Below, in pieces: positions 18,905-31,800 of a DNA stretch of 45,853 bases. How positions within the stretch are numbered: the first letter of the stretch is position 1; each line of letters starts with the position of its first letter. The stretch spans positions 1 to 45,853 of the forward strand of contig JAFDWM010000010.1 of assembly GCA_018268455.1 (NCBI GenBank). The letters run 5' to 3'. The translations under genes and the position numbers were made by a program. This stretch comes from Actinomycetota bacterium. GTDB taxonomy: Bacteria; Actinomycetota; Actinomycetes; Actinomycetales; Microbacteriaceae. The notes under the pieces were generated by a model that saw only the letters and a program-made list of their open reading frames with translations, ran no database searches and had not been told where the DNA came from.

Positions 18905-18985
18905 CCCGCCCGGCCGCGTTGTCGGATCCGCTCGATCCGTGCGATCTGCCGCGCTGTCCTGACGTGTATCCGGGCGACCACAATC

Positions 18986-19204
18986 GCTCCCGTCGCACAA
19001 ATTGTCGGTCGGGCGCGGTCCGAGCGGCATCCTTTGCGACGGGAGCACCTCGTCGGCTAGCTCCCGTCGCAGAAACTGTCGGTCGTGCGCGGTCCGAGCG
19101 GCATCTTTTGCGACGGGAGCGTCAACGCGCTCGGGATCAGATCGCTCCGGTCGCAAATGATGCCCGTCGAGTCGTACAGGAGCCGCACTTTCTGCGACCG
19201 GAGC
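18986..19204. repeat. Palindromic repeat family R1, left cluster (three 61-bp units)
   Basis: The units lie at 18986-19046, 19060-19120 and 19144-19204. Each is exactly 61 bp and bounded by 12-bp inverted arms: GCTCCCGTCGCA and TGCGACGGGAGC in the first two, GCTCCGGTCGCA and TGCGACCGGAGC in the third. Both arms of unit three changed together, so pairing is kept. The first two units are in the opposite orientation to the third and to the four units at 20358-20670. The units lie 3' of the nuclease gene and fill most of a 410-bp gap. Confidence 0.93.
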
Positions 19205-19314
19205 GGCCTGGTGACGGGACCTGTCCCGGAATCAGACCCGGCGTCGTCGGCGACCAGCTCGGGCGGTGTCCCGACGACGTCGAGGCGGTCGGATCCGCGG
19301 GTGCCGCTCCGGAG

Positions 19315-20295
19315 TCACGAGCGCTGCGCGAGCGCCCGCCGCACGCGGCGTACGAGTTCTGCCTGCTCCTTGACGAGCTCCGCGGTGACTTCGATCACGA
19401 TCCATCCGGCGTGGCGCAGCGCAGCCATGCGCTCGACGTCGGCCGCATAGTGGTCGCTGTGCAAGATTCCGTGGTATTCGATCGCGATGCGCAGATGTGG
19501 ATAGGCGAGGTCGACGCACCCCAGGAACTTCCCGGCCTCGAACACGTCGATGTTCAGCTCAGGCTCCGGCAGACCTCGCGTCACGAGGATGCAGCGCACG
19601 AGTGACTCCCGCGGCGACCAGGAGTCCTCCCGGATGAGTTCGAGTCCCTCACGCAGGTTCGCCACCCCCACCCGTCGACCGGCCCCGACCGCCGCGCGCA
19701 GCTCTTCGATCGTCGCCAGCGGCGGACGACCCGGATCCTTGCGTCCCACACCCTCACGCCAGCGCCGGCAGAAATAGTCGCCCAGCGCGACGAGGTCCAT
19801 CAGCGGCAAGGAGGCGCCCATGCTCGCCCAGGTGCTGGCGGCCGACATGACCGAGACGCCGTCGAGATCCACGATATGCGTGGTGCGCGCGAGCGCGCGA
19901 TGGCCGCGGACCCCCCGCACGCGTGGGAGGGGAGCATCACCGAAGACGCCGACGTGCACCGGCAGCGCACGGCCGTCTGCGATTCTGCCGTCTGTCATCG
20001 CGAGCGGGAGCGGAGCACCCCAGCGGACAGCGGCCGAGTCGTGCGTGAAGAACTGCCCGGGGGTCAGTCGCGGGACGTACTCGTCGGTGCGCGCGCGACG
20101 CTGGGCAGACTGGATCTCATACGGGTCGGCACCCGGATCCGACGCCGTCGCCGGCGTGGAGCGACGTCGAACCCCGTGGAAGGGACTGCTGAGATCGGGG
20201 CTCCGCAGACGACCGGCGTTCACTCCCGCGTCGCGCGCAGCTGACACGTGGAAGACGTCACCGAGGCCGGCGGGGATATCACGACGCGTTGGCAT
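19315..20295 (-). CDS. DUF559/Vsr-like PD-(D/E)XK nuclease with AbiEi-like N-terminus
   Basis: In this 326-residue protein, residues 1-50 (VSAARDAGVNAGRLRS, SPFHGVRR) resemble the DNA-binding start of AbiEi-type antitoxin domains. The C-terminal 90 residues match the DUF559/Vsr-like endonuclease fold: VDLAYPHLRIAIEYHG, with D262 and E273 as probable metal ligands, and then ALRHAGWIVIEVTAELV. It is a clear paralogue of the gene at 30017-31033 (shared STWAS, GRRVGV, LREG and AGW segments). The minus-strand gene stands alone between two clusters of 61-bp palindromes. Nuclease activity is inferred from fold and residues; the biological role is unknown. Confidence 0.85.
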   Translation of the reverse strand: MPTRRDIPAGLGDVFHVSAARDAGVNAGRLRSPDLSSPFHGVRRRSTPATASDPGADPYEIQSAQRRARTDEYVPRLTPGQFFTHDSAAVRWGAPLPLAMTDGRIADGRALPVHVGVFGDAPLPRVRGVRGHRALARTTHIVDLDGVSVMSAASTWASMGASLPLMDLVALGDYFCRRWREGVGRKDPGRPPLATIEELRAAVGAGRRVGVANLREGLELIREDSWSPRESLVRCILVTRGLPEPELNIDVFEAGKFLGCVDLAYPHLRIAIEYHGILHSDHYAADVERMAALRHAGWIVIEVTAELVKEQAELVRRVRRALAQRS

Positions 20296-20357
20296 GTCGA
20301 GACTCTGTCATCTACGAGATGCCGCCGTCCGACGTTGTCCACAGGCCGGTGGCCGAT

Positions 20358-20670
20358 CCTCCCGTCGCAATGGATGTCGCTCGTGCCGGGTGGGAGCAGC
20401 GTTTTCTGCGACGGGAGCGGAGATGAGTTGGGGGCGTATCGGTTCCCGTCGCAATGGATGTCGCTCGTGTCGGGTCGGAGCCGCGTTTTCTGCGACGGGA
20501 GCGAAGATGAGTCCGGGGCGGATCGGTTCCCGTCGCAATGGATGTCGCTCGTGCCGGGTCGGAGCAGCGTTTTCTGCGACGGGAGCGAAGATGAGTTGGG
20601 GTCGGATCGGTTCCCGTCGCAATGGATGTCGCTCGTGCTGGGTCGGTGCAGCGTTTTCTGCGACGGGAGC
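20358..20670. repeat. Palindromic repeat family R1, right cluster (four 61-bp units, period 84 bp)
   Basis: The units lie at 20358-20418, 20442-20502, 20526-20586 and 20610-20670, separated by near-identical 23-bp spacers (GAAGATGAGTTGGGG with TCGGATCG). The left arms are G/C-TTCCCGTCGCA-like and the right arms are all TGCGACGGGAGC. The inner part carries ATGGATGTCGCTCGTG and GAGCAGCGTTTTC and can form a second short stem. Three units have GTTC at the left end, which still pairs with GAGC through a U-G pair in plus-strand RNA. The cluster is upstream of the minus-strand nuclease gene. Confidence 0.95.
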
Positions 20671-20806
20671 AAATCTGGATCCGGATCCCGGCCCACGACC
20701 GGGGCCCGGGCGGATCCCGGCCCCCGGGGCCCACGACCGGGACCGGGGCGGATCCACGGGGCGAAGCAGACCCGGCGCACCACCGCGGCGCGCCGTCGGT
20801 GTCCAT

Positions 20807-29596: not shown

Positions 29597-29669
29597 GCGG
29601 CGAGACCCTCCGCGGACGCCTTGGGGTCGCGCCATCCCGTGGCCGCGTGGGTCTGGCCCTCGACATAGC

Positions 29670-29963
29670 GCTCGCCAGTCGCGAGTTGCCCATTCCCGGC
29701 GCTGAAGACGGCAATACGCGTCAGGCGAGCCGCGACGGAAGGGGCATTCTGAGCGCTGCTCTTCACGTTGCGCTCGCCTGACTCTCGTTGCCCATGCGGG
29801 GTCCCGCGGAGGGCATCGCGCGTCAGTCGAGCCGTGGTGAAAGGGCGTCTGGTGTCAGGCCAGCGCGCTGGCTGATGGGGTGGGACTCGCTGTTCACCTT
29901 TCGTTCGCCTGTCCCTCGTTGCCCATGCAGGGGTCTGGGGTGGGCAATACGCGTCAGGCGAGC
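29670..29963. repeat. Palindromic repeat family R2, left cluster (three 61-bp units)
   Basis: The units lie at 29670-29730, 29772-29832 and 29903-29963, each exactly 61 bp. The left arms read GCTCGCC or GTTCGCC and continue to GTTGCCC; the right arms run GGGCAATACGCGTCAGG and end in CGAGC. In the first unit 17 of 21 arm positions pair. Each unit is followed by an extra right-arm-like piece such as GGGCGTCTGGCGTCAGG. The sequence differs from R1, but the length and the GCTC/GAGC ends are the same. The cluster lies between the convergent secreted-protein and nuclease genes. Confidence 0.92.
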
Positions 29964-30016
29964 TGCGGTGGATGGGCGTCTGGCGTCAGGTCAGCGCCGG
30001 CCGACTACGCGGCGGC

Positions 30017-31033
30017 TCATGCCGTGCCGGGGCGCCAGCCGGCCTGGAGCAGCGCGTCGCGCACGCGGCGCGGGGCTTCACCGGTCTCGTGGAGGTGATC
30101 TGCGGTGATCTGCACGACGCGCCACCCGGCGGAGGCGTAGGCGTTGTACTTGTCGATGTCCTTCACCCACTGGCTCCGCTCGGTACGGTGCTGGTCGCCC
30201 TCGTACTCGACGGCGACCAGGTAGTCGGGGTACGCGATCTCGCTGCACCCGAGGTACACGCCCGCCGCGTAGACGTCGAAGTCGAGCGTGGGCGCGGGCA
30301 GGTCGGTGCCGGTGGTGAGCGCGAGGCGCAGTTTTGTCTCCTGTGGCGACGCGGATCCGATCCGGATCAGCTGTCGTGCCTCTCGGAGCGTCCGGATCCC
30401 GACCCGCCGTCCGGCGGCGATGACCGCATCGAGATCGTCGAACGTCGCGAGGGGAGCGTGCAGCACGCGGCCGTCCGGGCCGGGAATCCGCGGGATCCGC
30501 ACGAGGGCGTCGCCGACTGCGACGAGTTCGTCGAGAGTGAGTCGACTTGCCAGCGACGCCCAGGTCGCCGCCGGTGTCGACATCGGGATCCCTCCGACCA
30601 GGATGACCGGATCCAACGCCGCGACGGTCTCGTGACCGCGGATCCGCGCTCCCCGCGGCGCGCGCCCGGGGCGGTGCACGGCGGCTTCGATGAGCACGCG
30701 CTCTTCAAAGGGCAGTCCCCATCTGTTCCGCTGGGCGAAGCCGCGGTGCGGCAGCGGGATCTTGTAGTGCGCGGCCGCGGTGGAGTGGCTGAGGTGCGCA
30801 CCTGGCGGCATCACCAGCGCATATGCCGACGCGAGCGACTGCACGGCACGGATGACCGGATCCACGAACTTGTCCCGCTCGTCGGTCTGGGGATCCGCGT
30901 CCTGGATCCTGACCCCGCGAAACGGCGCAGCCAGATCCGCGCGACGCAGCTGCTTCTCGGACACCCCGGCGGCCCGAGCCTGGCGGAAGGTGAACGCGGT
31001 CGGCAGGTCGGGCGGCAGAGGGAGCGGGCGCAT
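30017..31033 (-). CDS. DUF559/Vsr-like PD-(D/E)XK nuclease, second paralogue
   Basis: The 338-residue protein is colinear with the protein at 19315-20295: N-terminal AbiEi-like region (FRQARAAGVSEKQLRRADLA, PFRGVR), middle (PAATWASLASRLTLDELVAV, GRRVGIRTLREARQLI) and C-terminal nuclease core SEIAYPDYLVAVEYEG with E265 and E276 at the same 11-residue spacing. The first acidic residue is Glu instead of Asp. ATG 31033 is preceded by GATGCT and 6 nt, a weak leaderless context. It stands alone between two R2 repeat clusters. Nuclease activity and role are inferred. Confidence 0.85.
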   Translation of the reverse strand: MRPLPLPPDLPTAFTFRQARAAGVSEKQLRRADLAAPFRGVRIQDADPQTDERDKFVDPVIRAVQSLASAYALVMPPGAHLSHSTAAAHYKIPLPHRGFAQRNRWGLPFEERVLIEAAVHRPGRAPRGARIRGHETVAALDPVILVGGIPMSTPAATWASLASRLTLDELVAVGDALVRIPRIPGPDGRVLHAPLATFDDLDAVIAAGRRVGIRTLREARQLIRIGSASPQETKLRLALTTGTDLPAPTLDFDVYAAGVYLGCSEIAYPDYLVAVEYEGDQHRTERSQWVKDIDKYNAYASAGWRVVQITADHLHETGEAPRRVRDALLQAGWRPGTA

Positions 31034-31170
31034 CCCGACAGCATCGCCACCGGCCAGCCGCAGTGGGACGTCGTCTACGGAACCCGTGTGAATCCCGGCC
31101 AAGTGCGCGATTGTGGAGGCCGATGCCCGGACAACTGCGCGCGGCAGTCCCGGTGCGCAGCGTCCACCGC

Positions 31171-31800
31171 GTGTTCGGTTGTCGCTGGTTGCCCTTGGCG
31201 GATCCTTCGCCTGTCGCTGGTTGCCCGTCGTAAGGCTCTGGAGGGGCAAGACGCGTCAGGGGAACAGCGGCGAGGGCAACACACGTCAGGGGAACGGCGG
31301 CGAGGGGCGGATTGCGTCTGAGGAACGACAGCGTGGGGCGGATTGTGTGTCAGGGGAGGCGGATCCGGCGCGCGAGGCCGCGGGCGCCGCGGGTTCGGCT
31401 GTCGCCGGTTGTCCTTGGCAGATCCTTCGCCTGTCGCTGGTTGCCCGTCATGAGGTTCTGGAGGGACAACTTGCGCCAGGGGAACGGCGGCGAAGGGCAG
31501 CATGCGTCAGGGGAACAGCGGCGAGGGCAACACACGTCAGGGGAACGGCGACGAGAGGCGGTTTGCGGCAGCGGAGGCGGATCCGGCGCGCGAGGCCGCG
31601 GGCGCCGTGGGTTCGGCTGTCGCTGGTTGTCCTTGGCAGATCCTTTGCCTGTCGCTGGTTGCCGGTGATGAGGTTCTGGAGGGGCAGCATGCGTCAGGGG
31701 TGCCGCGGCGAAGGCAGCAAGCGTCAGGGGAACGGCGACGAACGGCAACACGCGTCAGGGGAACGGCGGCGAAGGGCAACAGGCGTCAGGCGAAGGATCC
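31171..31800. repeat. R2 right array: three tandem blocks of about 219 bp
   Basis: The blocks start at 31171, 31391 and 31609. Each has two left arms (TGTCGCTGGTTGYCC, about 30 bp apart, the second preceded by GATCCTTCGCC) and then three or four right arms (GGGCAACACACGTCAGGGGA and variants) at about 30-bp spacing. The array starts and ends with inverted GGATCCTTCGCCTG and CAGGCGAAGGATCC. The arms match the 61-bp units on the other side of the nuclease gene, so this is an expanded form of the same family. Confidence 0.9.

Follow-up and report, generated by a model that had tools for sequence, protein, structure and literature searches.

What is the purpose of seven palindromes of exactly equal length placed on both sides of a single putative nuclease gene? 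The question is raised by contig JAFDWM010000010.1 of an Actinomycetota bacterium of the Microbacteriaceae (assembly GCA_018268455.1), the whole 45,853 nt of which are referred to here as the window and supply all coordinates. In this window, a gene for a DUF559-like protein of 326 aa (19315..20295, minus strand) stands between two clusters of 61-bp palindromic units. An earlier sequence-only reading had offered three options for these units, namely a processed RNA, a nuclease recognition array and a non-autonomous mobile element. Here, the latter two gained support because most DUF559 homologs examined adjoin a palindrome and because dispersed units have no counterpart at the orthologous sites that were inspected in relatives, and they probably belong together; the processed RNA was not supported. 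The architecture is that of the repetitive extragenic palindromes (REPs) and their REP-associated tyrosine transposases (RAYTs) but the enzyme is different, and our best reading is therefore a system like that of REPs or REP doublets forming hairpins (REPINs), with a predicted EDxHD nuclease, that is, a variant of the REP–RAYT kind and not a member of it.

Seven palindromic units surround a DUF559-like gene

All seven 61-nt palindromes described in the sequence-only reading were found as given. On the downstream side of the gene they occupy 18986..19046 (plus strand), 19060..19120 (plus) and 19144..19204 (minus), and on its upstream side 20358..20418, 20442..20502, 20526..20586 and 20610..20670 (all minus), the first of these four lying 62 bp from the start codon. 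Their scores against the covariance model R1, described below, are 70.7, 74.7, 64.4, 71.6, 73.8, 75.2 and 69.8 bits, respectively. The inversion of the units at 18986 and 19060 relative to the other five was confirmed, as was the 84-bp period of the right-hand four, while the start-to-start spacing of the left-hand units is 74 and then 84 bp. The end motif TGCGACSGGAGC, with at most one mismatch, matched the window 16 times versus 2.4 expected, a count reached in 0 of 100 shuffles, and the ends of the seven units account for 14 of the 16 matches. The first four bases of the units are GCTC, GTTC or CCTC, and pairing is almost complete over the outer 12 positions. The base just outside a unit, read outward, was G in 76% of 62 flanks, and the true unit may therefore be 63 bp long rather than 61.

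The encoded protein was modelled as an AbiEi-like N-terminal region joined to a nuclease domain of the Vsr/I-Bth0305I (EDxHD) fold. The gene had previously been called a DUF559 nuclease; the match is DUF559-like only (E 5e-4, 20.4 bits versus a cut-off of 20.6), and searches of Pfam, NCBIfam and PADLOC returned little beyond DUF559. The protein was matched in 49 of the 58 genomes searched, its own genome counted. Residues E230, E273, H279 and D286 were invariant in 27 proteins, and the Asp of VDLAYP was Asp in 22 and Glu in 5 of them (alignment A3, which omits L280 and L299, each with one in-frame TGA, and L301 and L304, which are cut short). By analogy, these conserved acidic and His residues may be assigned to catalysis.

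Palindromes accompany most DUF559 genes examined across the order

From this genome alone, the link between the palindromes and DUF559 appeared refuted, as most units lie elsewhere in the genome without such a gene beside them; comparison with relatives reversed that conclusion, and the link holds at the level of the family. A long palindrome was found within 450 bp of 24 of the 31 same-genus DUF559 loci (two of which are from this genome) and on both sides of 10. In other families of the order, the corresponding counts were 13 and 7 of 19 loci, these being 20 loci hand-picked from 39 matches, with L347 (no match) dropped before the count. By comparison, a palindrome lay beside 31 of 357 control genes (genes of 600–1500 nt in the sampled stretches, from which DUF559 genes were not removed) and at 15 of 300 random positions, and never on both sides of either (0/357 and 0/300). 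For a palindrome on any side, Fisher's test against the control genes gave p of about 3e-17 in the same genus and about 2e-9 in the other families. The palindrome criterion was strict: of the four units upstream of the window gene, three fail it by one pair. When it was set aside, the similarity between upstream and downstream flanks exceeded the best of 150 random controls at 21 of 31 and 15 of 19 loci, respectively; 120 mismatched locus pairs averaged 12.0 in similarity and reached at most 23.0, and the three highest values came from pairs of loci of the AGTGTCC type introduced below. Across the 31 same-genus flanks, the palindrome sequence differs among lineages and is often identical on both sides of the gene.

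The matching of palindrome and enzyme was further seen, with exceptions, at the level of lineages and paralogs. A pattern with AGTGTCC, derived from sequences flanking six DUF559 genes, gave 192 forward matches in 9 of 35 same-genus genomes and none in 23 other genomes, and the reversed pattern gave none. R1 matches were found in 12 same-genus genomes (our own included), without overlap with the nine AGTGTCC genomes; R1 counts in relatives are lower bounds, as 93 candidates were scored per genome under stricter filters. Nine arm patterns were run on stretches of seven genomes, of which four matched in their own genome only, a fifth yielded one weak pair in a foreign genome and four gave no matches in these small samples. 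Genome G021 carries two DUF559 paralogs, each bracketed by its own fixed-length family, with 2 and 5 further copies in a 500-kb sample that purposely included the gene loci. Repeat-type labels placed on a protein tree (27 proteins, 13 labels assigned by us from flank scans) required 14 changes where at least 12 are needed and shuffled labels require 20 on average, and 0 of 200 shuffles was as low. The signal was carried by three groups; three other two-row groups were not clustered.

Units are dispersed in intergenic DNA and missing at two orthologous sites in relatives

Covariance model R1 was built from 15 units (alignment A1), that is, 15 of the 16 found in the genome by a pattern with a free gap of 30–50, which had returned a single common length; the remaining unit was without a locus. 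With R1, at least 49 places in the 3.6-Mb genome were found to carry units (97 strand matches), 48 of them of 61 nt and one of 62 nt, a lower bound because 150 of 6207 first-look candidates were scored. Seven of the 49 are at the window's DUF559 gene and 42 on other contigs, where they adjoin genes that read as ordinary ones, such as dnaJ, hemB, hemL and dhaK (names assigned by eye); the earlier statement that no other genes lie near the units was wrong. None of the contigs with the genome's other four Pfam matches to DUF559 carries a unit. According to our own gene calls, whose caller shortened the DUF559 gene, 27 of 30 sites lie between two called genes, with neighbours convergent at 11, tandem at 10 and divergent at 6; neighbours were undetermined at 2 further sites, and one site overlaps a gene end. 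Dispersed copies differ in their central bases and are constant in length, and no resemblance between the flanks of single units is apparent by eye. A search for target-site duplications was negative, direct flank matches of 2–9 bp at 23 single units being at or below the shuffled level. A GATC lay within 10 bp of the unit end in 15 of 62 flanks. When the 310 contigs of the genome were searched for the exact end motif, all occurrences fell in units except for one, which lies within a coding sequence that by eye looks like rpsC.

The sequence-only reading had proposed a comparison of empty and occupied sites, and in relatives the units were missing at both dispersed sites examined. With the gaps read by eye, the unit between dnaJ and hspR was missing in 20 of 20 relatives' loci, and the five-unit array between hemL and hemB was missing in 22 of 24, the other two loci having no left-flank match or masked bases. 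At the window cluster, the gap between the upstream gene and rpsL is 2099 bp in this genome versus 215–499 bp, in the same arrangement, in 8 of 16 relatives. In the other eight, the upstream gene is inverted in one, the gap measures 1991 and 2888 bp in two, and no upstream gene is shown in five. In the 5 kb fetched at the rpsL site of the 16 relatives, DUF559 had no match at E 1e-4. The approximate lineage-specific insertion spans 18905..20800, its edge near 20800 being placed by eye from the rpsL promoter, and sits in intergenic DNA.

Further observations were made at these sites. In the hemL–hemB gap of G016 (L404), G009 (L406) and G006 (L407), a palindrome of other sequence is present at the array position, with ends GAGGGGTC in L404 and L406 and GTGAGTCGCC in L407. 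A unit of the AGTGTCC type in another relative (G018:C3:368958-369009) is located about 310 bp upstream of that genome's rpsL match, which corresponds to the neighbourhood of the window cluster; the spot upstream of rpsL may be favoured for insertion. Several units in our genome are arrayed, with start spacings of 73, 74 or 84. In the array at L036 (2011-2363), four of the five tandem units have CGACCCGAGC for CGACGGGAGC in one arm, uncompensated throughout the array; duplication seems to be the way in which tandem arrays grow.

The two arms vary mostly independently

Pairing was tested on 48 of the 49 own units, the 62-nt own unit being excluded, as was L443 (62 nt). In the inner arms (positions 13–25), 367 of 624 positions were paired, no better than arms re-dealt between units (z −0.3), and an earlier test on 16 units gave the same result. 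Selected base-pairing within genomes was rejected for positions 13–25, and the arms vary mostly independently. A slight pairing excess was seen next to the unit centre (positions 26–30; 93 of 240, z 2.7, 11 of 3000 re-deals as high). Among 51 AGTGTCC-type units of 51 nt, which were found via a pattern fixing only the outer ends and then hand-picked from the listing with near-duplicates and other lengths omitted, none of three tested stretches paired above re-dealt arms, and position 8 was Watson–Crick in just 26. On balance, we interpret the unit as two inverted half-sites at a set distance and not as a selected stem.

As noted in the sequence-only reading, the unit at 19144..19204 carries the same C/G change in both arms (variant CTCCGGTCGC). 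Given that other units (L032, and four of five in L036) have uncompensated arm changes, this one compensated pair is insufficient evidence for the selection for pairing that had been deduced from it. A plus-strand RNA, previously favoured on account of U–G compatible ends, was likewise not supported: a T·G mismatch on one strand is a C·A mismatch on the other, no Rfam family reached its gathering score in the window, the arms are mostly independent and the units occur in convergent, tandem and divergent gaps. Predicted single-strand folding was strong for most sequences tried, ranging as RNA from −24.7 to −60 kcal/mol (8 sequences).

Comparison with known systems

Passages of PMC2817692, PMC3116915 and PMC3733652 describe the REP–RAYT architecture as a flanked gene, dispersed cognate palindromes and coevolution of the two. 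As in the REP/REPIN–RAYT systems presented in parts of PMC2817692 and PMC3116915, the palindromes studied here flank the gene, are also dispersed and form tandem clusters by the gene, and palindrome and enzyme match by lineage and paralog. Unlike a RAYT, the window enzyme is modelled as an EDxHD/Vsr-type nuclease with an AbiEi-like N-terminus and not as an HUH Y1 transposase, and unlike REPs, the window units have no unpaired GTAG (or CGTC) tag and form one fixed-length dyad of about 61 bp. Y1_Tnp (PF01797, the RAYT family) was found in 0 of 35 same-genus genomes and in 2 of 58 genomes in all; with none in the 35 same-genus genomes, a RAYT was rejected as the mobiliser. The CGTC-tagged REPs, which excerpts of PMC3733652 place predominantly in alpha-proteobacteria with no dedicated transposase found, are likewise dispersed palindromes but have a different tag and different hosts.

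The nuclease domain shares its modelled fold with Vsr and with the EDxHD homing endonuclease I-Bth0305I, which is reported in part of PMC3943268 to be dimeric on a target of nearly 60 bp. Unlike either of these, the window gene is free-standing between palindromes in intergenic DNA, has tens of dispersed target-like copies and encodes a predicted AbiEi-like N-terminus. A homing endonuclease gene moves into the target allele that its product cuts, most often in an intron or intein; the lineage-specific insertion before rpsL is intergenic. The protein also differs from AbiEi type IV antitoxins in that its AbiEi-like region is fused to a nuclease domain. In open-licence literature (titles and starts of abstracts, with preprints and most subscription papers outside), none of the matches listed ties DUF559/Vsr-like proteins to dispersed palindromes.

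Proposed mechanism and alternative explanations

We lean toward the view that the units are cognate sites of the DUF559 protein, which would bind and cut them and thereby spread them. The site would be a dyad in which two inverted half-sites, each about 25 bp long, surround a centre of 11 bp, held at 61 bp by the spacing that a dimeric nuclease would need. The AbiEi-like plus EDxHD/Vsr-type protein would bind this dyad and then nick or cut it, cutting would let the dyad spread into intergenic DNA as a tiny non-autonomous element, and copies on both sides would tie the gene to its own repeats. Overall, such a system would work like REP/REPIN–RAYT with an unrelated enzyme. Several observations weigh against a simple match between palindrome and enzyme. 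Genome G002 has R1 matches yet no DUF559 match, both G005 and G029 have dispersed units (three inspected in each) of another type than the one next to their gene, and G038 shows just two flanking copies in 400 kb. The half-site reading has evidence against it as well: AGTGTCC-type units of other lengths, which were outside the pairing test, have CGCCG in both arms, and 20 relatives' units covary strongly (z 7.3), but these were chosen by a model that rewards pairing.

The units could instead be operators of the AbiEi-like N-terminus, serving autoregulation and perhaps genome-wide binding, and be spread by ordinary duplication and not by the nuclease. AbiEi itself recognises inverted repeats within the promoter of its own operon, and the AbiEi-like fold of the protein model, the upstream unit 62 bp from the start codon and arms that mostly act as independent half-sites would all suit such a role. 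However, copies are present on the downstream side of the gene and in convergent gaps as well, at least 49 are present in this genome with two sites lacking them in relatives, and plain duplication does not account for single units whose flanks, judged by eye, seem unrelated; we therefore regard this explanation as unlikely. A hairpin function in RNA or single-stranded DNA, as bidirectional terminators or mRNA stabilisers with only a secondary link to the nuclease, would fit the stable predicted folds (−24.7 to −60 kcal/mol as RNA), the convergent neighbours at 11 of the 27 sites with both neighbours called and the pairing excess at positions 26–30, which is seen in own units and in the 20 relatives' units. 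It is quite unlikely given that positions 13–25 of 48 own units show no pairing excess, that 51 AGTGTCC-type units show none in the stretches tested, that 16 of the 27 sites are not convergent, that no Rfam family reached gathering score in the window and that a terminator needs no exact 61-bp length.

Terminal inverted repeats, intergenic position and a patchy distribution are also what miniature inverted-repeat transposable elements (MITEs) copying the ends of an unrelated transposon would show, with the DUF559 genes as passengers. Against this, central bases vary between dispersed copies at constant length, no target-site duplication was detected, exact end motifs all lie in units save the one in the putative rpsC, and the palindromes match DUF559 lineage and paralog, which renders a MITE origin improbable. 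Finally, palindromes also occur beside 31 of 357 control genes and at 15 of 300 random positions, as chance or generic intergenic hairpins would predict; considering the Fisher p values of about 3e-17 and 2e-9, the 0 of 357 control genes with palindromes on both sides and the similar sequence on both sides of DUF559 genes, this explanation is hardly credible.

Many bacteria carry REPs and REPINs, for which the relevant parts of the papers cited above name HUH RAYTs as the associated enzymes. We give an even chance to the broader proposition that the window's cognate-site system represents a new REP-like class of mobile DNA, widespread in the order, in which fixed-length dyads are each cut by a dedicated EDxHD/Vsr-type nuclease whose recognition module derives from AbiEi. 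REPIN-like populations would then have a second evolutionary origin, centred on a nuclease that is not related to HUH transposases, and recognition module and palindrome would have diverged together. If true, a second enzyme class with an equal gene–palindrome architecture would suggest that systems of this type can have independent origins, the functionally uncharacterised domain DUF559 would acquire a testable role, and the types within one genus, with two in one genome, would provide many natural enzyme–site pairs for studying change in nuclease specificity.

Second paralog in the window and further observations

A second DUF559-like paralog (30044..31018, minus strand), 38% identical to the first and the same kind of gene, has its own repeat family on both sides, with 12 copies of a 22-mer in all (29647-31794). 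The cluster downstream of it (29647..29976; D2, D3) belongs to a different family from the 61-bp units, with 22-mers such as ACGGCAATACGCGTCAGGCGAG, and the cluster upstream of it (31157..31794; D1, D2) is of that same family. Beside the first gene, two 28-nt GC-rich direct repeats (GGCCCACGACCGGGGCCCGGGCGGATCC) at 20690-20755 separate the last unit from the rpsL promoter.

Wider scans of contigs and of viral sequences with a loose pattern were also performed, and most of the matches listed look like chance. Of the seven loci from the contig scan that were given to R1, L053 had no match, L077 scored 15 bits, L063 scored 22.6 bits and L062, L119, L074 and L115 scored 24–59 bits. R1 matches in named records include L074 in Microbacterium galbinum and a weak one, L063, in Microbacterium sp. 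ASV49, and the window itself may come from a Microbacterium. L062 and L119, from the Actinomycetota metagenome-assembled genome SZAS-4, matched R1 at 55–59 bits; as this lineage bears a different name, the matches point to broader spread or transfer.
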